Below, piece by piece: positions 864 through 46,808 of a DNA stretch of 64,000 bases. Numbering within the stretch: the stretch's first letter is position 1; every line of letters starts with the position of its first letter. The position numbers and the translations under genes are program-made. This DNA comes from Aequorivita soesokkakensis (lineage in GTDB: Bacteria; Bacteroidota; Bacteroidia; Flavobacteriales; Flavobacteriaceae): contig NZ_LXIE01000008.1 of NCBI RefSeq assembly GCF_001641085.1, forward strand, positions 1-64,000. Direction: 5' to 3'. The notes under the pieces were generated by a model, which did no database searches, was not told where the DNA came from, and was given only the letters and a program-made list of their open reading frames with translations.

Positions 864-1828
864 TAAATAATTCCCTCTTTGGTAAGATTGTGAATATGCA
901 CAACGCCACTGTATTTGCCTTTATCTTCGGCAAGAATCTGTGTTATGCCATAATTGTCCATCATTTCCATGGCTTCAACTGCCATGGCATTGTTGGCTAT
1001 TTTTTTTGGATTTTTGGTCATAATATCCTTTGCGGTCAACCCTGCAAAACTATCTGTTCTCGTTAACATACGCCTTAAATCACCATCGGTAATTATCCCT
1101 ACAATTTCATCGTTTTCAACAACAGCAGTAACTCCGAGCATTTTTTCGGAAATTTCCACAATCACTTTTTTAACATCAGTATCCGGGCTTACTTGTGGTT
1201 TTTCATTCAACGAAGTAAGGTTGCTTACCCGCAAATATAATTTTTTCCCCAGAGAACCTCCTGGGTGAAATTTAGCAAAATCCTTGCTGGAAAATCCGCG
1301 TAGATCCAGAAGACACATTGCCAAAGCATCGCCAATAACCAATTGTGCGGTAGTACTAGTAGTTGGTGCAAGATTATTGGGGCAAGCTTCTTTTTCAACA
1401 TAAGCATTCAAAACAAAGTCTGCCTGTTGCCCTAAAAAGGAATCCCGGTTTCCGGTAATGGCTATTAATTTATTGTCAATAGCTTTAATTAGTGGTACAA
1501 GCACTTTTATTTCGGGCGTATTTCCACTTTTTGAAATACAGATAACCGTATCGTTTTCCTGAATGGTCCCCAAATCTCCATGAATGGCGTCTGCAGCGTG
1601 CATAAAGATTGCAGGCGTGCCGGTAGAGTTTAAAGTGGCCACAATTTTAGTAGCGATATTTGCACTTTTGCCTATTCCGGTAACAATTACCCTTCCCTTG
1701 GAATGATAAATAAAATCAACAGCTCCCGCAAATTCATCGTCCACAAGATGGGCGAGGTTTGCAATGGCTTTACTTTCAGTTTCTATGGTGTTTTTCGCTA
1801 CGGAAATAATTCTGTCTTGCTTGTTCAA
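863..1828 (-). CDS. kdsD: Arabinose-5-phosphate isomerase, KpsF/GutQ/KdsD family
   Basis: The enzyme interconverts ribulose-5-phosphate and arabinose-5-phosphate, the first step towards Kdo for lipopolysaccharide. A SIS domain occupies about residues 35-170 (GRVIVTGIGKSANIA, then CISKSGNTPE), followed by two CBS domains at about 205-320 (IVGIITDGDLRRML is typical of the first). The 321-residue length matches the family. The start codon appears to be TTG at 1828; no ATG lies in frame upstream, and the conserved helix begins within a few residues of it. It is the first gene of a pair with tatC and is preceded by a good TAnnTTTG promoter. Confidence 0.94.
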   Translation of the reverse strand: MNKQDRIISVAKNTIETESKAIANLAHLVDDEFAGAVDFIYHSKGRVIVTGIGKSANIATKIVATLNSTGTPAIFMHAADAIHGDLGTIQENDTVICISKSGNTPEIKVLVPLIKAIDNKLIAITGNRDSFLGQQADFVLNAYVEKEACPNNLAPTTSTTAQLVIGDALAMCLLDLRGFSSKDFAKFHPGGSLGKKLYLRVSNLTSLNEKPQVSPDTDVKKVIVEISEKMLGVTAVVENDEIVGIITDGDLRRMLTRTDSFAGLTAKDIMTKNPKKIANNAMAVEAMEMMDNYGITQILAEDKGKYSGVVHIHNLTKEGII

Positions 1829-1956
1829 AATTTTAATGCTTTTGAATGTTTGTAACTGTTTCAGAAATTAGTATATTTAGAATAGAATTTAACACAATTC
1901 AGTAATCTTAATATAGATACCTTTCTTTTTAAGATGCAGTCAACTTAATACGGTTG

Positions 1957-1986
1957 CAAAATTACAATTGTTAATCTGTAAAACAA
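1957..1986 (-). promoter_or_regulatory. Bacteroidota-type promoter of kdsD-tatC
   Basis: On the minus strand a TTG (-33 element, 1984-1986) is followed after 19 bases by TAATTTTG (-7 element, 1957-1964), matching the Bacteroidota consensus TTG-N19-TAnnTTTG. It would give a leader of roughly 120 nt before the TTG start of kdsD. The rest of the 203-bp divergent gap shows no comparable match for recQ. Confidence 0.5.
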
Positions 1987-2031
1987 TGTATTGTTGGCTA
2001 AAACTGAATTATCCCTAAAAACCCAAGCAGC

Positions 2032-4224
2032 GTGGCAGAGATTGACATTTACGCAGCCCTAAAAAAATATTTTGGATTTACCCGCTTTAAAGGCCTACAG
2101 GAGGAAGTGGTAAAAAGTATCCTAAACGGTAACAATACCTTTGTTGTTATGCCTACGGGCGGCGGAAAATCTCTTTGTTACCAACTTCCGGCGCTTATGC
2201 AGGAAGGTACGGCAATAGTGGTTTCGCCACTTATTGCGTTGATGAAAAACCAAGTGGACGCCCTGCGTTCGCTTTCTTCGGAAGAAGGAATTGCGCATGT
2301 ACTGAATTCTTCCCTCAACAAAACTGAAGTAAAAAAAGTGAAGAGCGACATCGCCAATGGAGTGACAAAATTGCTCTACGTTGCTCCCGAATCGCTCACC
2401 AAGGAAGAGTATGTAGATTTTCTGCAAACCCAAAAAATTTCCTTTATGGCTATTGACGAAGCGCACTGTATCAGTGAGTGGGGGCACGATTTTAGGCCAG
2501 AATACCGAAATCTTAAAAGTATTATCCAACGCATAGGTACCGATATCCCTATAATCGGCCTTACCGCTACTGCAACTCCAAAGGTGCAGGAAGATATTCT
2601 GAAAAACCTCAATATGCAGGATGCAAATACCTTTAAAGCATCCTTCAACCGCCCAAATCTCTATTATGAAATAAGACCGAAAACCAAAAATGTTGATTCG
2701 GATATAATTCGTTTTGTAAAACAGAATGAGGGCAAAAGCGGAATTATTTATTGCTTAAGCCGAAAAAGGGTAGAAGAGCTCGCACAAGCTTTGCAGGTAA
2801 ACGGAATAAAAGCAGTGCCCTATCACGCCGGTCTCGACGGCAAAACCCGCGTAAAGCACCAAGACATGTTCTTGATGGAAGATGTGGATGTTGTTGTTGC
2901 AACCATAGCTTTCGGAATGGGAATTGACAAACCGGACGTTCGTTTTGTAATCCATAACGATATTCCTAAAAGCATTGAAAGCTATTACCAAGAAACCGGA
3001 CGGGCTGGCCGCGACGGTGGCGAAGGTCATTGCCTAGCTTTTTACAGTTATAAGGATATAGAAAAACTTGAAAAATTTATGAGCGGTAAGCCCGTTGCCG
3101 AACAGGAAATTGGCCACGCACTATTACAGGAAGTTGTTGGTTTTGCAGAAACTTCCATGTCCCGAAGAAAATTCATCCTTCATTATTTTGGGGAAGAATT
3201 TGATAATGAAACTGGTGATGGCGGGATGATGGACGATAATATGCGCCATCCCAAAAAGAAACATGAAGCCAAAGAAGATGCAAAACATCTTTTGGAAATT
3301 GTTTCCAAAACCAATGAACAGTATAAAAGCAAAGAAATAGTAAATGTACTGATAGGGAAAGTAAATGCCTTAATAAAGTCCCATAGAACCGATGTACAGG
3401 AATTTTTTGGCTCTGGTTCAGATCACGATGGAGCCTACTGGATGGCATTGCTTCGCCAGCTTTTGGTTGCAGGCTATTTGAAGAAAGATATTGAAACCTA
3501 TGGCGTAATTCATTTAACTGATGCTGGAAAGAAATTTATTAAATCGCCAGTTTCTTTTATGATGACTGAAGATCATTCCTTTAAAGATGCCAATGATGAT
3601 GTGATTGTAGGCGCCAATAAAGGGGGTGATGTAGCTGATGAAAATCTTTTCAAACTTTTAAAAGCGGAACTTAAAAAAGTGGCGCACGATTTGGACCTTC
3701 CGCCATTTGTAATTTTCCAGGAACCTTCCTTGGAAGATATGGCGCTTAAATATCCAGTAACTATGGAGGAACTTTCCAACGTTCACGGGGTAGGAGAAGG
3801 GAAAGCGAAAAAATACGGCAAATCTTTTTTAAAGCTTATACAGGATTATGTTGAAGAAAACGACATAATTAGGCCGGAGGATTTTGTAGTTAAATCTACA
3901 GGAAGTAATAGTTCCCTAAAATTATATATCATCCAAAACGTAGACAGAAAACTTGCTTTGCCCGATATTGCCAGTGCAAAAGGACTAGAAATGCCTGAGT
4001 TTATAAAGGAAATGGAGGCCATAGTTTACAGTGGCACCAAGTTGAACATAGATTATTGGGTAGATGAAGTATTGGACGAAGACCAACAGGAAGAAATCCA
4101 CGAATATTTTTTAGAAGCCAAATCTGATAAAATAGAGGAAGCGATGGAGGAATTTGATGGAGATTATGATGAAGAGGAATTGCGGTTATACAGAATAAAA
4201 TTCATCAGCGAAGTTGGGAATTGA
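2032..4224 (+). CDS. recQ: ATP-dependent DNA helicase RecQ, zinc-less variant
   Basis: A 3'-5' superfamily 2 helicase for recombination and fork repair. Walker A TGGGKS is at residues 42-47, DEAH at 142-145, LTATATP at 177-183 and motif VI ETGRAGRDG at 321-329. An RQC/winged-helix region follows, with an HRDC domain at about 535-615 (LPPFVIFQEPSLEDMA). The region that normally holds four zinc-binding cysteines (about 375-405, SRRKFILHYFGEEFDNE) contains no cysteine at all. At 730 residues it is longer than E. coli RecQ (about 610), with an acidic C-terminal extension. The start is GTG. The gene ends in a palindromic terminator shared with the convergent neighbour. Confidence 0.95.
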   Translation: MAEIDIYAALKKYFGFTRFKGLQEEVVKSILNGNNTFVVMPTGGGKSLCYQLPALMQEGTAIVVSPLIALMKNQVDALRSLSSEEGIAHVLNSSLNKTEVKKVKSDIANGVTKLLYVAPESLTKEEYVDFLQTQKISFMAIDEAHCISEWGHDFRPEYRNLKSIIQRIGTDIPIIGLTATATPKVQEDILKNLNMQDANTFKASFNRPNLYYEIRPKTKNVDSDIIRFVKQNEGKSGIIYCLSRKRVEELAQALQVNGIKAVPYHAGLDGKTRVKHQDMFLMEDVDVVVATIAFGMGIDKPDVRFVIHNDIPKSIESYYQETGRAGRDGGEGHCLAFYSYKDIEKLEKFMSGKPVAEQEIGHALLQEVVGFAETSMSRRKFILHYFGEEFDNETGDGGMMDDNMRHPKKKHEAKEDAKHLLEIVSKTNEQYKSKEIVNVLIGKVNALIKSHRTDVQEFFGSGSDHDGAYWMALLRQLLVAGYLKKDIETYGVIHLTDAGKKFIKSPVSFMMTEDHSFKDANDDVIVGANKGGDVADENLFKLLKAELKKVAHDLDLPPFVIFQEPSLEDMALKYPVTMEELSNVHGVGEGKAKKYGKSFLKLIQDYVEENDIIRPEDFVVKSTGSNSSLKLYIIQNVDRKLALPDIASAKGLEMPEFIKEMEAIVYSGTKLNIDYWVDEVLDEDQQEEIHEYFLEAKSDKIEEAMEEFDGDYDEEELRLYRIKFISEVGN

Positions 4225-4225
4225 C

Positions 4226-4255
4226 CGTAGAAACCCACGGCCGTGCGTCTCTACG
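4226..4255. terminator. 30-bp dyad palindrome between convergent genes
   Basis: CGTAGAAACCCACGG (4226-4240) is followed directly by CCGTGCGTCTCTACG (4241-4255). The second arm is the reverse complement of the first except at two positions, and there is no spacer. T-rich sequence follows on the plus strand. It lies just after the recQ stop and covers the stop of the convergent YejK-like gene, so a bidirectional terminator role is likely. The sequence resembles a palindrome that I have seen dispersed in other bacterial genomes. Confidence 0.6.
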
Positions 4256-5309
4256 ATTTTTGTTCTTTATTGAAATACACTAAATAATAATACATCTGCT
4301 TTTCCTCGTCCCAGCCTTTTTCTACAAATTTTTCGGCACTTTCGGGATTGATGAAATCTAGCTTTATTTGAATATTTGTATCCAGATTTATTACATTTTT
4401 TATTTTCTTTCGTGCTGCTGTTACAGCAGTATTTGCGATTGGAAATGTGGTTAAATCCTCAATGCTGTATTTTGGTGCTTTTTCACTTTTGTAATGACGA
4501 AACTCTGGCAATAAATCTGGATTGTCAATCACTTCATTCATAAAGGCAGTTTCCTCAAAATTGTCGTTTTTCGCGAAATGGTTTACCGCACGGTTCATAA
4601 ACATCACCTCCTGCTTTTTGTCTTCAGCTGGTAAAACCACATCCTTCGCAAAATCCTGACAAAATTTTAGATACTTTTTTGTGTAGAAATTATCATCAGC
4701 AAGTGCTTCAACTCCTAAAAAACTTTCCAACCAATAACGCGCATCATAACGATTGCTATCAACAGAAAGAATTTTATATCCCTGTTCTTTTCCTGAATTG
4801 AAAATAATACAGCCTTTGTCCAATTTGTTCAAGCTAACTCCGTGTTGCAACATTGCTTCCAATTGGTTTCCTTCCTCTGCAAACTGAAGAAAATCCTGTT
4901 TCAACTCACTCTTAAAAATACCGATGGCGTCCATTTTTACGTTATCCAACTGCACGTTTTCAAGATAGGCAACATAAACTTCGCCGCTTTTTATATGTGG
5001 GTGTTCAGATTGATTATAAAGATAAGATGCTATTTTTCTACTCTCTTCATGAATTTCTTGCGGATTGTCAAAAATCTTCGAAGCACTATTAAAAAGTTCG
5101 TGAAACTCCAAATCAGCTTCGTGCGAAAATTGAAAATAATTCTCTTCCTTATCACGGAATGGTTTCAGAAAAAACTCTTTCAATAACGGAGTTATTTCAT
5201 CGTCCATTTTATAAGGTTCCTCAGAAAGAAAAATAGCTTCGTTTCTGCTTTTGTTACCCACTCTGTGAATGGAAAGGGATGCAATGTGGGTATTGAAAAG
5301 GTTAATCAT
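4251..5309 (-). CDS. Nucleoid-associated protein, NdpA/YejK (37-kDa) family
   Basis: The protein belongs to the 37-kDa nucleoid-associated family (E. coli YejK), which binds nucleoid DNA; the exact role is unclear. The family start is visible (IASLSIHRVGNKSRNE), and 352 residues fit the usual 330-350. A central region (VYVAYLENVQLDNVKMDAIGI region, about residues 120-145) and the C-terminal IKLDFINPESAEKFVE segment are typical. It is cytosolic, with no signal peptide. The upstream gap to the next gene is filled with A-rich and CTGACTA-type simple repeats, so it probably has its own transcript. Confidence 0.88.
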   Translation of the reverse strand: MINLFNTHIASLSIHRVGNKSRNEAIFLSEEPYKMDDEITPLLKEFFLKPFRDKEENYFQFSHEADLEFHELFNSASKIFDNPQEIHEESRKIASYLYNQSEHPHIKSGEVYVAYLENVQLDNVKMDAIGIFKSELKQDFLQFAEEGNQLEAMLQHGVSLNKLDKGCIIFNSGKEQGYKILSVDSNRYDARYWLESFLGVEALADDNFYTKKYLKFCQDFAKDVVLPAEDKKQEVMFMNRAVNHFAKNDNFEETAFMNEVIDNPDLLPEFRHYKSEKAPKYSIEDLTTFPIANTAVTAARKKIKNVINLDTNIQIKLDFINPESAEKFVEKGWDEEKQMYYYLVYFNKEQKS

Positions 5310-40907: not shown

Positions 40908-42074
40908 TTAATTCAAAACAATCTTTTTAGTAACCAAATTCTCACCATTTTTAAAAACTCCTTCATAAATTCCCGCCTGTAAAAAGCTTAAATCCAAAGT
41001 ATTGTTTTCATTCTTCAATGTAGTTTTATAAACTATTTTTCCCAAAACATCAAAAACTGTGAGCTCAATATTTTCTTCGGGAAATGAGTTTAAATCTATC
41101 GTAAATTTTCCGTTCGAAGGATTTGGATAAAAAACAATAGTTGATGCAAAACTGTTTTCCGAAACTCCAAGTGGTTCACGCGCAACCGCAAAATGTAATG
41201 CCGAACCCAAAGCACCTTTGGTAACTTCAAAAACATACTCTGGGTCCATATTTTCAATAATATCGTTTGGTGAATGCGGATAGGGCGATTCGTTGGCTTC
41301 GTATAAACCGGTAATCACTTCGCCATTATTTTCAAAAGGAATATAATCAGAAGCATAAGCGTTTGAAATTTGGGTCTGCAAATTTGAATACAGCCCAAAA
41401 CAGTTCGCCATTTCCTGAGTTGCCTGTGCCGATGGGGCATTGTTAGAGCTAGGCGGCGAATCTTCATCACGCTCGCAAACAATAGTATTATTGTTCATTC
41501 CAGCAACCCCGCCAACTTCATCTATATTTAAAACCAATTTGATGTCCAAATTTTGTGGGTTTACGGTATGGGTTACGTAATAATCACTGCCAATCAGCCC
41601 TTCTTCCTCGCCACTAAAGTGGATAAATTTGATGGAGTATTCGGTATCTACATCTTTCAGCAATCTTGCAAGTTCCAGTATCAGCACGGTTCCGCTACCG
41701 TTATCGTTGGCACCGGGACCGTTTATGGTATCGTAATGGCCGTCAATTATTAGAAAGGTATTTGGATAAACACTACCAGTTTTTGTAATGATGATATTGG
41801 AAGTTGTTTGCCCAGAAACATTGAAATCCTGTGTTTCAATAGCTGTGTACCCCAGGCTTTGGTAACGTTGAATTATCCAATCTTTGGCGTCTTCAATTTC
41901 GCTGCTTCCGGGTTCTTTTACTCCAAAATCAACTAGTGTTTCTAAATCATCGAGAAGGTTAGAGGCGGAAACGTTTTGAACAATTCCATCATAATACGGG
42001 TTGTAAACCTGTGAATTGGTACTTAAAAATGTAAAAAGACAAAGTAAAACTGCTAATTTGGGAAATGAATTCAT
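40908..42074 (-). CDS. Secreted M28 aminopeptidase with T9SS type A sorting domain
   Basis: A zinc peptidase of family M28. The N-terminal signal (LAVLLCLFTFLSTNSQ) directs Sec export. The metal site reads IIDGHYDTINGPGANDNGSG (His and Asp ligands), then FSGEEEGLIGSDYY (catalytic Glu pair) and LNIDEVGG. A last His is in PYPHSPND. The C-terminal 80 residues form a type A sorting domain (FYPNPSNGKFTIDL, VFDVLGKIVY, LQAGIYEGVF, VTKKIVLN) that directs it through the type IX secretion system to the cell surface. The length is 388 residues. The genes around it are unrelated. Confidence 0.92.
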   Translation of the reverse strand: MNSFPKLAVLLCLFTFLSTNSQVYNPYYDGIVQNVSASNLLDDLETLVDFGVKEPGSSEIEDAKDWIIQRYQSLGYTAIETQDFNVSGQTTSNIIITKTGSVYPNTFLIIDGHYDTINGPGANDNGSGTVLILELARLLKDVDTEYSIKFIHFSGEEEGLIGSDYYVTHTVNPQNLDIKLVLNIDEVGGVAGMNNNTIVCERDEDSPPSSNNAPSAQATQEMANCFGLYSNLQTQISNAYASDYIPFENNGEVITGLYEANESPYPHSPNDIIENMDPEYVFEVTKGALGSALHFAVAREPLGVSENSFASTIVFYPNPSNGKFTIDLNSFPEENIELTVFDVLGKIVYKTTLKNENNTLDLSFLQAGIYEGVFKNGENLVTKKIVLN

Positions 42075-42132
42075 CGAAAAATTTATTTTTTGTGAAAGTA
42101 TTGCTTTTTGATTGAAAATGGGAAAAATCTGA

Positions 42133-44670
42133 TTATGAAATATAATTCCAAATATTCCGATACTTTACAAGTTGTGCATAGGTATTTTTTATAGGAATAT
42201 TCTCTTCGGAAGTTAGATTGGGATCTGCCTTTAGGGTTTGCATTGCATAACTTCGGGCAATCTTCAAGATTTCGGAATCTTTTATTATATCAGCGATGCG
42301 AAGGTTTAGCACTCCGCTTTGTTGGGTGCCCATCATATCGCCGGGACCGCGGAGTTTTAAATCTACTTCGGCTATTTCAAAACCGTCGCTGGTTCGTACC
42401 ATGGTTTCCAATCGGGTTTTGGCATCTGCCGAAAGTTTGTGGCTGGTCATTAAAATACAATAACTCTGTTCCGCGCCACGGCCAACCCTTCCACGCAGCT
42501 GGTGCAATTGTGATAAGCCGAAACGTTCTGCACTCTCAATAATCATCACGCTGGCATTTGGCACGTTTACGCCAACTTCAATTACGGTTGTGGCAACCAT
42601 AATTTGTGTTTCGCCTTTAATAAAACGGTTCATTTCATAATCCTTATCGGCAGATTTCATTTGCCCATGAACGATTGAAACTTGATACTTCGGCAAAGGA
42701 AATTCGCGCACAATACTTTCGTATCCGTCCATCAAATCTTTGTAATCCATGGTTTCACTTTCCTGTATTAATGGGTACACAATATACACCTGTCTGCCCT
42801 TGCTAATTTCGTCTTTTATAAAGCGAAAAACCTTCAGTCTATTTGCGTCAAAACGATGCACGGTTTTGATGTCTTTTCTGCCCGGTGGAAGTTCGTCAAT
42901 TACGCTAATATCGAGGTCGCCATAAACGCTCATAGCAAGGGTGCGGGGGATGGGGGTGGCGGTCATAACGAGGATGTGTGGCGGAATGGCCCCTCCAACC
43001 TCCCCGGAGGGGAGGCTTTTTAAAATAGTTTCAATTGTTTTTAAGGAAGCATCGAGGTTGCCTATTATTTCTTCGTTTGTAAACCGTAGGACTTTATACT
43101 TTAGTTCTTTTAAAATCTGGGTTCTTAGTTCATCAGCCTCTTTTTGTTGCGGGTGGTTGTGATATCCTCCATCTACTTCAATAACCAGTTTTTTTTCAAG
43201 ACACACAAAATCAACAATAAAATCATCAATAACATGCTGTCTTCTAAATTTATAATTAAGTTTTTTGGTTCGTAAACACTCCCATAAAATAGCTTCGGCT
43301 TGGGTGGGTTTTTTCTTGTTTTTTTGTTGAAGCTCCTTCAATAATTTGTAGGCAGAGGGTCTGGCCGTCATGTATTTTTTACGCACTTCAGCTTCCTCCC
43401 TTTGGGAGGATTGAGGAGGGCTTCCTTTGTGCCATAATTTGCTCCTTTGCTCCACTCCAAAACGATGTTGTTCATCCACAATTGCAAGCCCTAAATTTTT
43501 GAATTTTACCTTATCTTCGAGTAGGGCATGGGTGCCAATTAGGATGTCTAATTCGCCATTTTCCAGTTTTTCGTGAATTTCTCGTCTCTTTGAAGTTTTA
43601 GTTGATCCAGTTAGCAATTCAATACTGGTGTTCAGTTTATTACATAATTCAACCAATCCATTATAATGCTGTACTGACAAAATTTCAGTCGGCGCCATTA
43701 AACAGGCTTGAAAACCGTTGTCAATGGCTATTAACATTGACATTAGCGCTACGATGGTCTTGCCGGAACCTACATCGCCCTGCAAAAGTCGGTTCATCTG
43801 TGCGTTGCTGCCCAAATCGTTGCGGATTTCCTTGATGACCCGCTTCTGTGCTTCGGTCAATTCAAAGGGTAAATGTTCCGAAAAAAAGGTGTTGAAATTG
43901 TGCCCAATTTTATCAAAAGGATAGCCTTTAATTTTGGATTTATGGATGAGGTTTTTCCGAATTAATTGCAGTTGGATATAGAACAATTCCTCAAATTTTA
44001 ATCGGTATTGTGCACGTGCTAAATGGGCCTGACTTTTTGGAAAATGTATGTTGAAAAGTGCCTCCTTTTTTGAGACCAATTTTAGCTGTTCCAAAAGTGG
44101 TTTTGAGAGTGTTTCGGCGAAGGCATTTTTGCTCTCCAAAAACAGCTGTTGCATCAGACCATTTATTACCCTATTTGTGATACCGCTGTTCCCCAATTTT
44201 TCGGTGGAAGGATACACGGGTTGCATGGCAGAACGGATGCTTTTTTCGTGTGCATCCAGCAATTCCATTTCGGGGTGCGGCATTGAGAAGCTGTTGTTGA
44301 AATAATTCGTTTTTCCGAATATTACATAGGGAACATTCAACTTTAAATTTTCCCGAATCCATTTTTGGCCTCGAAACCAAACGAGTTCCATCGACCCTGT
44401 TTCGTCAATAAAAGTGGCGACCAATCGTTTTCCACGTTTTTGTTCAACCGTTTTTATATGTGTTATTTTCCCAATAATCTGAACTTCGGCATTGGTTTGC
44501 TGCAATTGCGCGATTTTATAGTATTGTGTTCTATCGAGATAACGATTCGGAAAAAGATTCAGCAAATCCTGAAAAGTATGGATGCCAAGCTCCTTTTTCA
44601 GCAAATCCGCCCGGTTTGGGCCGACGCCTTTTAAGTAATCTATTGGAGTTTGCAGGAAATTGGCATTCAT
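42133..44670 (-). CDS. recG: ATP-dependent DNA helicase RecG with an in-frame DUF559 insertion
   Basis: RecG unwinds branched DNA and reverses stalled forks. The N-terminal wedge/OB region (YLKGVGPNRADLL, LVWFRGQKWI) is normal. Helicase motifs follow in order: GDVGSGKT (I), APTEIL (Ia), VDEQHRFG (II), MTATPIPRT (III), IVYPLI (IV), then VATTVIEVGV and QLRGRVGRG (V, VI). Between II and III, residues about 417-561 (43421-42989) are foreign and carry a DUF559 endonuclease domain. The gene is therefore 845 residues against about 700 usually. All RecG motifs are intact, so the helicase may still work. I use the ATG at 44670, not an upstream TTG. Confidence 0.93.
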   Translation of the reverse strand: MNANFLQTPIDYLKGVGPNRADLLKKELGIHTFQDLLNLFPNRYLDRTQYYKIAQLQQTNAEVQIIGKITHIKTVEQKRGKRLVATFIDETGSMELVWFRGQKWIRENLKLNVPYVIFGKTNYFNNSFSMPHPEMELLDAHEKSIRSAMQPVYPSTEKLGNSGITNRVINGLMQQLFLESKNAFAETLSKPLLEQLKLVSKKEALFNIHFPKSQAHLARAQYRLKFEELFYIQLQLIRKNLIHKSKIKGYPFDKIGHNFNTFFSEHLPFELTEAQKRVIKEIRNDLGSNAQMNRLLQGDVGSGKTIVALMSMLIAIDNGFQACLMAPTEILSVQHYNGLVELCNKLNTSIELLTGSTKTSKRREIHEKLENGELDILIGTHALLEDKVKFKNLGLAIVDEQHRFGVEQRSKLWHKGSPPQSSQREEAEVRKKYMTARPSAYKLLKELQQKNKKKPTQAEAILWECLRTKKLNYKFRRQHVIDDFIVDFVCLEKKLVIEVDGGYHNHPQQKEADELRTQILKELKYKVLRFTNEEIIGNLDASLKTIETILKSLPSGEVGGAIPPHILVMTATPIPRTLAMSVYGDLDISVIDELPPGRKDIKTVHRFDANRLKVFRFIKDEISKGRQVYIVYPLIQESETMDYKDLMDGYESIVREFPLPKYQVSIVHGQMKSADKDYEMNRFIKGETQIMVATTVIEVGVNVPNASVMIIESAERFGLSQLHQLRGRVGRGAEQSYCILMTSHKLSADAKTRLETMVRTSDGFEIAEVDLKLRGPGDMMGTQQSGVLNLRIADIIKDSEILKIARSYAMQTLKADPNLTSEENIPIKNTYAQLVKYRNIWNYIS
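42989..43016. repeat. Terminal hairpin repeat, 3' end of the recG insert
   Basis: CCTCCCC (42999-43005) and GGGGAGG (43009-43015) form a 7-bp stem with a 3-nt loop, flanked by the outer GCCCCTCCAA. It is imperfectly inverted with respect to the element at 43391-43421 and is translated as part of the RecG sequence (SLPSGEVGG). Confidence 0.8.
43391..43421. repeat. Terminal hairpin repeat, 5' end of the recG insert
   Basis: TCCTCCC (43394-43400) and GGGAGGA (43404-43410) form a 7-bp stem with a TTT loop, followed by the outer TTGAGGAGGGC. On the coding strand it reads as SPPQSSQREEA. It pairs as the inverted counterpart of 42989-43016. Confidence 0.8.
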
Positions 44671-44759
44671 AAAACGAAAATACAAATTTGGTTGCGAGCG
44701 GAAAGCATTGGTTGAAAATTTGTAATTTGCTTTCGCTAATTAAATTGCCCTTCACTAAA

Positions 44760-46808
44760 ATGAACAAGTTTCTTATTGCGTTTCTTTTTTCAGGTTTTAC
44801 GGTATTTGCACAGCAGACTGATGTTGTGGATTTTTTGAAGATTGAAGCTTTAATTAGGCCCGATGTTTTAGAAAAAAAAATAGCAGGGCGATATTTAGCC
44901 ACATTCGAAGTTTTGAAAGAAACCGATTCAATTTTTTTGGATGCGGTAAATATTATTATCGACGAAATTAAGAGTAAAGAATTCAAAATATCAGCTGATG
45001 AAAAGAAGGTTTGGTTTGTTGGCAAATTTGAAAAAGGTAATACTTACGTAGCAGATTTTTATTATGAGATGAAACCAAAGCAAACCCTTTATTTTTTTGA
45101 AGATCAAATTTGGACGCAGGGCCAAGGCAAATACACTTCACATTGGTTGCCCAGTATTGATGACATTAACGATAAAATTGAGTTTGATTTACTTCTATTT
45201 GCTCCAACTGATAAAGCTGCGATAGCAAATGGAAAATTAATGAATGTGGGCGAGATTCCAGAAGTACGGCATTTCGATATGAAAGAACCCATGTCTAGCT
45301 ATTTGGTAGCATTTGCCATAGGTGATTTCAACAAAAAAGACCTCGTTTCAAATTCTGGAATTCCAATTGAATTGTATTACAAACCTTCAGATTCTCTAAA
45401 AGTAGAACCCACGTATCGCTACAGTAAACAAATTTTTGACTTTTTGGAAAGTGAAATCGGAGTGCCGTATCCGTGGCAAAACTACAAGCAAGTTCCCGTA
45501 CGGGATTTTCTGTACGCCGGCATGGAAAATACAACCGCCACTTTTTTCTCAGAGGCGTTTGTGGTTGATTCCATAGGTTTTAACGACAGAAACTACGTAA
45601 ACGTAAACGCCCACGAGCTCGCCCATCAATGGTTTGGCGATATGGTTACCGAAAAAGCAAGTGAGGATCATTGGTTGCAGGAAGGCTTTGCAACCTATTA
45701 TGCTTTACTGGCTGAAAAAGATATTTTTGGTGAAGATTATTATTACTGGCAATTCTACCAAACCGCAGAGCAATTAAAGGCAATGAGCGATGAAGGAAAA
45801 GGCGAATCATTATTAAACCCAAAGGCAAGTTCGCTTACATTTTACCAAAAAGGAGCTTGGGCGCTTCATATTTTGCGGGAAAGGATAGGGGATGAGGCTT
45901 TTAAAACGGCAATCAAAAACTATTTGGAAAAATATAAATTCAAAAATGTTTCTACCGATGATTTTTTAAATGAAGTGAAAGTCGTTTCTGCAATTGATAT
46001 TTCAGATTTTGAGAGGGAATGGTTGCAACAAAGCGCTTTTAAAGGGGAAGAAGCATATCAATCTTTATTGAAATCTGAGTTTATAAAAAAATATTTTGAA
46101 ATCTCTGCGCTTCGGGCAACGCCTTTGGCAGATAAAAAAATCCAGCTAAAAACCGTGCTGACCTTTCCAAATGATTTTATTGGGCAGGAAGCGGTTTATC
46201 AATTGGCGGGCGAGCCGCTCTCTGAAATACTTCCGCTTTATAAAAGCGCTTTTGAGAGTAATAATCTGTATGTTCGACAAGCTGTAGCACTTTCGCTTCA
46301 AACCATTCCGAAAGAACTTCAAAAAGAATATGAAAGTCTGCTAAATGACGATTCCTATGTAACGTTGGAATCCGCGCTGTATCAATTATGGATGCAATTT
46401 CCAGAGAAAAGAACCCAATATCTCAACAAAACAAAAGGAATTGAGGGTTTTCAGAATAAAAACATTCGACAACTCTGGTTGACGTTGGCTTTGATTACAG
46501 AAGATTATGAAAACTCTGAAAAGGAAAATTATTTAAAGGAATTGAAAAATTATACTTCCACAGATTATAGTTTTGAGATCCGTGAAAAGTCTTTTGAATA
46601 CGTAAACGAGCTTCAACTCTGGGATTTGGAAACGCTTAAAAATTTAGCGGAAGCCTGCGTGCATCCCACGTGGCGCTTCTCAAAACCTTCCAAAGAAATG
46701 TTGAATGAACTGCTTCAAAATGAAAAATATTACGAGCAAATAAAGGTTTTGGGCAGACAAGTTTCAGAAAAAGCGGCTAATTATTTAAACTCAATTATAA
46801 AGGAATGA
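44760..46808 (+). CDS. M1 family aminopeptidase
   Basis: A zinc aminopeptidase with a signal peptide (MNKFLIAFLFSGFTVFAQ). The exopeptidase motif is seen as YAGMENTTATFF (GAMEN-like). The zinc motif is HELAH at residues 285-289 with the third ligand Glu at 308 (HWLQEGFATYY), exactly 18 residues after it. The C-terminal helical domain is long. It is probably in the periplasm or bound to the outer membrane. The ATG at 44760 is chosen over an earlier in-frame ATG because it begins the signal peptide. It overlaps the patatin gene by 4 bp (ATGA). Confidence 0.93.
   Translation: MNKFLIAFLFSGFTVFAQQTDVVDFLKIEALIRPDVLEKKIAGRYLATFEVLKETDSIFLDAVNIIIDEIKSKEFKISADEKKVWFVGKFEKGNTYVADFYYEMKPKQTLYFFEDQIWTQGQGKYTSHWLPSIDDINDKIEFDLLLFAPTDKAAIANGKLMNVGEIPEVRHFDMKEPMSSYLVAFAIGDFNKKDLVSNSGIPIELYYKPSDSLKVEPTYRYSKQIFDFLESEIGVPYPWQNYKQVPVRDFLYAGMENTTATFFSEAFVVDSIGFNDRNYVNVNAHELAHQWFGDMVTEKASEDHWLQEGFATYYALLAEKDIFGEDYYYWQFYQTAEQLKAMSDEGKGESLLNPKASSLTFYQKGAWALHILRERIGDEAFKTAIKNYLEKYKFKNVSTDDFLNEVKVVSAIDISDFEREWLQQSAFKGEEAYQSLLKSEFIKKYFEISALRATPLADKKIQLKTVLTFPNDFIGQEAVYQLAGEPLSEILPLYKSAFESNNLYVRQAVALSLQTIPKELQKEYESLLNDDSYVTLESALYQLWMQFPEKRTQYLNKTKGIEGFQNKNIRQLWLTLALITEDYENSEKENYLKELKNYTSTDYSFEIREKSFEYVNELQLWDLETLKNLAEACVHPTWRFSKPSKEMLNELLQNEKYYEQIKVLGRQVSEKAANYLNSIIKE

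Follow-up and report, generated by a model that had tools for sequence, protein, structure and literature searches.

The recG gene of Aequorivita soesokkakensis raises the question of why a helicase gene should carry a nuclease domain within its reading frame, and whether that domain belongs to the host protein or to a mobile element. The window, a stretch of 64,000 nucleotides on contig C8 of a 3.19 Mb genome, contains recG at 42133–44667 on the minus strand as one uninterrupted reading frame, 844 codons and a stop, that runs through the insert. The product is 844 aa long from the ATG, or 850 aa if started at an upstream TTG. Pfam identified the RecG_wedge, DEAD, Helicase_C and RecG_dom3_C domains together with DUF559 at residues 446–549 (E 8.9e-30), and both halves of the product were named RecG by NCBIfam. 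The uninterrupted recG frame with its helicase motifs, as described in an initial annotation made from the sequence alone, was thereby confirmed.

Comparison with empty recG genes placed the insert at 42985–43425 on the minus strand, where 147 codons encode RecG residues 415–561 between K414 and PPH562. Empty relatives have 3 residues at this site (KLWHK-NEY-PPHVLVMTATPIPRT), giving a net gain of 144, in agreement with the approximately 144 extra codons counted initially. The insert lies between DEQH and TAT, which we take to be helicase motifs II and III of RecG. Its DUF559 nuclease domain, assigned a Vsr-like or EDxHD-type fold from fold and profile matches, occupies 43021–43335 on the minus strand (PF04480, 108.2 bits; 108.1 bits for the insert alone), so that the domain proposed for the extra codons is present in full. 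The only Pfam matches in the insert were to DUF559 and the related MTES_1575 profile, with no transposase domain found there, and no target duplication was identified at its borders, which are approximate and not placed to the base. Among the best 80 of at least 579 relatives in named genomes, the closest recG insert was that of Aequorivita todarodis (91 %). Related inserts occupy the equivalent codon position in further species and genera and are under purifying selection, which indicates that the recG insert is more than a chance occurrence.

An AlphaFold model of the whole RecG with the insert was of low confidence (pLDDT 66, pTM 0.37) and no claim is based on it. The genome contains one more DUF559 match (C34:27729), which was set aside because by context it reads as a putative Vsr gene adjoining a cytosine methyltransferase and not as the element described here.

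The structure predicted for the insert by itself (pLDDT 79, pTM 0.73) matched 3hrl (Z 14.9), Vsr (Z 9.3) and the catalytic domain of I-Bth0305I (3r3p; Z 11.1, rmsd 2.7 over 95 residues; Foldseek E 4.1e-4). At the sequence level, profile A3 (48 copies) matched 3hrl (E 6.1e-31) and 3r3p, recorded as ‘Mobile intron protein’ (E 2.1e-7). In both sequence and fold the insert is thus related to the catalytic domain of I-Bth0305I, as expected of an EDxHD or Vsr-like homing endonuclease. Twelve columns were invariant among the 48 A3 copies, including D72, E83, D85, H89 and D98; these are conserved putative catalytic residues, the fold match suggesting a catalytic role.

Both ends of the insert carry hairpins on the minus strand, TCCTCCC-AAA-GGGAGGA at the upstream end (43394–43410) and CCTCCCC-TCC-GGGGAGG at the downstream end (42999–43015). 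Outer inverted-repeat arms of 22 nt, 73 % complementary to each other, lie at 43404–43425 (upstream end) and 42983–43004 (downstream end), also on the minus strand. This inverted repeat is weak by itself, an unrelated pair being equally long by chance (23 nt, 74 %), and the ends of the recG insert are convincing because the same kind of ends recur in other copies. For a set of 142 in-frame elements whose left ends are all different, the hairpin score was 11.7 per side versus 6.3 and 6.7 after triplet shuffling, and exceeded the shuffled mean at 133 of 142 left ends and 138 of 142 right ends. The left–right inverted match within an element averaged 9.9 versus 7.8 with the right ends of other elements, the own-end match being the greater in just 82 of the 142.

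The search for empty sites and for the insertion boundary (residues 415–561) that had been proposed at the outset was carried out on 85 recG genes, of which 14 were full, 11 had short in-frame scars and 60 were empty, all at one codon position. Within Aequorivita, 27 of the 28 genomes yielded a recG gene, giving 6 full, 5 scar and 16 empty alleles. For the rest of the Flavobacteriaceae, the 58 recG genes read at the site comprised 8 full, 6 scar and 44 empty alleles; the full copies were those from an insert search of 299 genomes, and the 58 genes were drawn from 70 chosen (non-random) genomes, the other 12 of which gave a single unbroken recG match with the site unread. Insert length in the 14 full copies was 441–456 nt, in whole codons throughout. 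Pieces of both ends were retained in several scars, such as KKGPPQSSNGGASIPPH in L176, and the palindrome-only alleles at the site (L012, L020 and L025) were of equal length. In-frame remnants in 11 of the 85 genes show that loss is not precluded, which corrects the initial proposal that loss of the insert is selected against.

On the RecG tree, full, empty and scar states were interleaved. The full state requires 12 changes, 6 of them forced by starred branches, and its clustering barely exceeded that of shuffled labels, 105 of 500 shuffles giving a count no higher. The residue following the lysine was N in all 60 empty genes and G in 24 of the 25 occupied ones. As an absolute marker, G at this position was rejected, since full copies in named genomes are less uniform, with N in L250, A in L251 and S in L252, L254 and L262.

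To compare rates of synonymous change, dS of the six Aequorivita recG inserts was set against 49 exon windows per pair, each of 144 codons and matched in length to the insert. Insert dS was below every exon window in 3 of the 15 pairs, namely G011–G023 (0.063 versus 0.356–0.701), G023–G009 (0.325 versus a minimum of 0.630) and G011–G009 (0.359 versus a minimum of 0.472), and the insert therefore moved between species. For G019–G009, insert dS was 0.327 and the exon median 0.913, with one exon window not computable, and in the other 11 pairs insert dS was not below the exon windows. The elevated identity covers the insert plus approximately 100 nt of flank on one side: identity for G011–G023 was 0.96 upstream, 0.96 in the insert, 0.85 just downstream and 0.94 at 300–450 nt downstream, and for G019–G009 it was 0.97 downstream, 0.91 in the insert and 0.80–0.89 in most other windows. 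The leuS genes of G015 and G005 had an exon dS of 2.02 and an insert dS of 0.57; those of G015 and G008 had an exon dS of 0.81, yet their inserts come from two lineages and are 64 % identical. These comparisons show horizontal spread of the element, within the genus only. In every pair that crosses genera, protein-level conservation of the recG insert was lower than that of the exons, which also fits a long vertical stay.

Mean dN/dS was 0.112 for the insert and 0.045 for the exons, with a value of 0.459 for the G011–G023 insert arising from very few synonymous changes. The mean insert value shows purifying selection, and with it that the nuclease is kept; the scars show decay in frame. No carrier was identified among 37 matching plasmid records, the top one being a DUF559-annotated protein with 49.5 % identity over 71 % of the query, and two further plasmid records of 60–80 % identity to the insert were counted. 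Likewise, no phage carrier was identified, with 2 weak matching records (40 and 35 %).

It had been suggested that the same domain might lie in frame in other essential genes, and it was indeed found in leuS, ileS, valS, metG, metH, uvrA and purL, among others. The Pfam DUF559 model, which has no bias toward in-frame copies, gave 41 matches in the genus at E≤1.8e-27, 16 of them in open frames of more than 800 codons (recG, leuS or metH). Across the phylum, profile A1 matched 129 of 395 genomes at E≤1e-25. The best 80 of the at least 579 relatives in named genomes were all from Bacteroidota, with 66 in frames of at least 300 codons and 63 flanked on each side by 60 or more residues of open frame; this set leans toward in-frame copies because A1 was built from in-frame copies.

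Hosts recognized by Pfam included the class I tRNA synthetases valS, leuS and metG, to which ileS was added by motif, as well as MetH, urocanase (hutU), MazG, PurL, UvrA and UvrD-type helicases. Further Pfam hosts were DegT-type aminotransferases, UDP-GlcNAc 2-epimerase, a polysaccharide-type epimerase, an ABC ATPase, a GH31 glycosidase, an aldehyde dehydrogenase–MaoC fusion, Ham1/RdgB, methylmalonyl-CoA mutase, an M23 peptidase, histidinol dehydrogenase (at the C-terminal end), HemD (upstream, in frame), HsdR, HsdM and a type ISP enzyme. The ileS, hsdS and some hemD labels are motif readings, hemD being Pfam-confirmed for L097 only, and the motif filter classified 14 of 20, 26 of 30 and 15 of 20 loci in three fetched sets, the rest failing the filter.

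Within the best 80, insertion sites were recurrent: 15 copies were at the recG site, 11 before AEGVDQTRGWF of ileS, 8 before VFTTRPDT (or its ADT variant) of leuS, 5 before ATTRPET of valS, 3 in metH, 2 in the editing region of ileS and 2 in metG. The leuS insertion site was also occupied by unrelated short repeats. In a tree of 61 DUF559 domains, based on few columns and with many forks unresolved, the inserts of recG (13 rows, 94/88), metH (10 rows, 99/94) and hemD (7 rows, 98/98) each formed one clade, those of leuS needed 4 changes, and the two copies inside one metH gene of G241 were sisters (100/97). The module mostly holds one site and occasionally takes a new one, behaviour that is more typical of homing elements than of free transposons.

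The palindromic ends also occur without the nuclease. The pattern CCTCCC-N4-GGGAGG, searched in the window’s own genome, demands a loop of 4 bases and does not capture the hairpins of recG, and the commoner end variant CCCCCTTYGGGGGYNAGGGGG was therefore used for dispersed-copy counts; two further CCTCCC-N4-GGGAGG sites in that genome were discarded as terminator-like by context. With up to 2 mismatches, this end was present in 0–76 copies per genome over the 28 genomes of the genus (reversed control, 0), and dispersed ends lacking the nuclease were present in 24 of the 28. The median was 18 in the 13 genomes with an in-frame element versus 3 in the 15 without (p 7e-5; p 1.1e-4 with the element’s own ends subtracted); allowing for relatedness, 4–5 of 6 independent pairs agreed and 0 opposed, with a median p of 0.0625, which is not significant. 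Thirty dispersed ends were fetched, of which 18 had no spanning ORF of more than 100 codons, 2 were leuS element ends, 3 lay within long ORFs without a nuclease (L347, L348 and L353) and 7 were in short ORFs or at an ORF edge. An inverted partner within 160 nt was seen for only 4 of the 30.

Taken together, we consider it likely that the insert is an unspliced, palindrome-ended, homing-type mobile element of a Bacteroidota-wide family, persisting as a translated loop. This suggests a selfish element surviving as a tolerated loop of a protein that its host needs. The initial annotation had proposed a selfish homing-type element translated as a loop, and its patchy presence, the similarity of inserts in excess of that of their genes in some species pairs, the homing-endonuclease profile and fold and the other essential hosts all support that proposal. 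The cleavage and homing themselves are steps that we infer, the local conversion tracts and the dS comparisons being indirect signs of cutting of element-free alleles and copying into them. The further suggestion of co-option to give RecG a nuclease is unsupported as a general case, because the module is found in unrelated enzymes and is absent from most of the RecG genes inspected.

The element can be pictured as a DUF559 reading frame without stops between two hairpin-bearing inverted repeats, lying in frame in a conserved gene. Without splicing, the nuclease would remain in the mature host protein as an additional domain, attached through flexible, proline/glycine-rich linkers that the palindromes encode. 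The nuclease, as fusion protein or fragment, would cut an element-less allele of the same gene, and repair from the occupied allele would copy in the element with a short flank. Entry into a new site would be rare, with survivors restricted to in-frame insertions in tolerant loops. Decay by in-frame internal deletion would leave a short palindromic scar, and nuclease-less ends may be mobilized too, by the nuclease, as small dispersed repeats.

Part of this evidence could also reflect transposition rather than homing, with DUF559 acting like a transposase on the palindromic ends and moving both full and nuclease-less copies, much as is presumed of RAYT proteins and REPs. Shared loops would then reflect tolerance by the host protein, or an earlier palindrome serving there as a landing pad. 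Such a process would fit the nuclease-less ends dispersed in 24 of 28 genomes, the palindrome-only alleles at the recG site, the unrelated short repeats at the leuS site, the two element lineages at one leuS site in one genus and the sister relationship of the second metH copy to the first. We nevertheless regard it as rather unlikely, given that inserts at the same site are mostly one clade and that the flank shares the raised identity, which better fits same-site copying, and that an inverted partner at no more than 160 nt was present for just 4 of the 30 dispersed ends examined.

Old domain accretion, in which a RecG ancestor gained a repair-useful nuclease domain that was inherited vertically and lost many times, appears improbable. 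The low insert dS in 3 of 15 pairs, the conflict between leuS inserts and leuS exons, the presence of the module in functionally unrelated enzymes and the palindromic, dispersed ends all argue against it, even though the single clade of recG inserts, their lower conservation than the exons between genera, the purifying selection on the insert and the presence of UvrA and UvrD-type helicases among the hosts would be compatible with it. The initial annotation had associated accretion with an insert found in all relatives, inherited vertically and devoid of hairpin ends; instead, 60 of 85 sites were empty, dS gave a transfer signal and hairpins, overlooked in that annotation, were found at both ends.

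Removal of the insert from the protein or the RNA, as an intein or intron, is very improbable, although inteins usually occur in just such a setting, with a homing-type nuclease placed in frame within a conserved gene (PMC3943268). No Hint or intein domain was found among the Pfam and NCBIfam matches of the recG product, in keeping with the earlier remark that intein splicing blocks were not visible, and no Rfam match to a group I or II intron was found at E≤1 in 42000–44800. The frame is open across each palindrome, and the protein products of scar alleles retain residues that the palindromes encode. What we take to be the usual intein junction residues are missing at the insert edges.

The homing-type element favoured here may have wider significance. 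It is about an even call whether it constitutes its own class of mobile element, a palindrome-ended nuclease gene that is neither intron nor intein, cuts empty alleles, decays to scars and mobilizes nuclease-less palindromes. Neither intron nor intein would be needed, because the element would persist only where it has landed in frame within a loop of a protein that the host cannot do without, and would be kept as part of that protein; on that reading it would have added segments to conserved enzymes, among them several tRNA synthetases, MetH, RecG, UvrA and PurL, throughout Bacteroidota. The element would explain why DUF559 domains occur within housekeeping proteins. Splicing of introns and inteins is held to be what gives homing endonuclease genes access to conserved genes, whereas this element does without splicing and still occupies indispensable enzymes. 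Within a single genus, one gene exists in empty, full and scar form, and such natural series allow direct tests of homing, of tolerance of a 147-residue loop and of decay.

No account of DUF559 in frame in other genes or with palindromic ends was found in the open-licence PMC literature, judged by titles and abstract openings, and description elsewhere is possible; nor did ‘DUF559’ and ‘inverted repeat’ co-occur in that literature. Taken singly, the fold of the nuclease and the occurrence of palindromes in frame within genes are already known. What is new is their combination, unspliced and widespread in housekeeping genes.

Among the nearest known systems are the EDxHD homing endonucleases (PMC3943268). 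I-Bth0305I (EDxHD, PDB 3r3p) resembles the insert in catalytic-domain profile and fold, and site-specific lineages and local conversion tracts are common to the element and to homing. I-Bth0305I is, however, recorded as a mobile intron protein and has further regions for DNA binding, whereas the element has no intron or intein and its nuclease is translated within the host protein between palindromes. Free-standing DUF559/Vsr-like proteins share the Pfam domain of the insert; in Caulobacter without a methyltransferase, one of them, VsrA, causes a DNA damage response in vivo (PMC12907096). Both 3hrl (PDB) and VsrA are free-standing genes, in contrast to the insert, which forms part of the reading frame of a different gene.

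In REP-RAYT systems (REPtrons), a gene for a DNA enzyme is flanked by associated hairpin repeats (PMC3733652), and the element is similar in combining hairpin repeats with a DNA enzyme. The REP-RAYT enzyme is a tyrosine transposase, whereas that of the element is a DUF559 nuclease carried in frame in host genes. Rickettsia palindromic elements (RPEs) and REPs inside genes are short palindromic repeats, found in frame in many unrelated genes including repair genes and with dispersed copies, and no autonomous partner for RPEs is named in the passages available (PMC3733652, PMC10969869). They share the in-frame palindromic habit and dispersed copies with the element, whose palindromic ends likewise occur as dispersed repeats, some of them in frame in genes. 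RPEs and REPs carry no nuclease, whereas the element is more than a small gene-less repeat: it encodes a conserved DUF559 nuclease and spans approximately 147 codons. In-frame palindromic repeats of the RPE kind seem to have no counterpart that bears a nuclease, and the element could be that counterpart.

The metH gene at locus L095, in genome G241, was found to carry two in-frame DUF559 modules at separate sites within a single ORF of 1159 codons, and these two modules were sisters in the DUF559 tree.

At the recurrent leuS insertion site before VFTTRPDT, nuclease-less relatives (loci L151–L171) held unrelated short in-frame repeats at the identical position. These were GAATTCA-type repeats, encoding FKIQNSEFKIP in frame, and a palindrome around CTTCGAGCGCAGTCGAGAAG, likewise in frame and encoding VPSSAVEKS.

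A distinct group of DUF559 genes in Aequorivita (L043, L045, L048 and L052) had short frames of 122–164 codons, with longer hairpins on both flanks, as if the group were a separate, intergenic element type. The second DUF559 match in the genome of the window (L002, G000:C34:27729–27854) reads, on inspection of its sequence, as a Vsr gene adjoining a cytosine methyltransferase gene.

Restriction-modification genes were repeated DUF559 hosts in other Bacteroidota families, including HsdR, HsdM, type ISP and Eco57I-like genes (loci L225–L231, L233, L234 and L236). The HsdR of L226 held both DUF559 and an in-frame GIY-YIG domain (PF01541; residues 251–316 of the hsdR frame 875–4699), identified by Pfam with an E value of 1.5e-14. 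The latter domain adjoined further palindrome-like sequence, as judged by eye. The GIY-YIG domain of this HsdR perhaps represents a second nuclease family that shares the in-frame habit of the DUF559 element.
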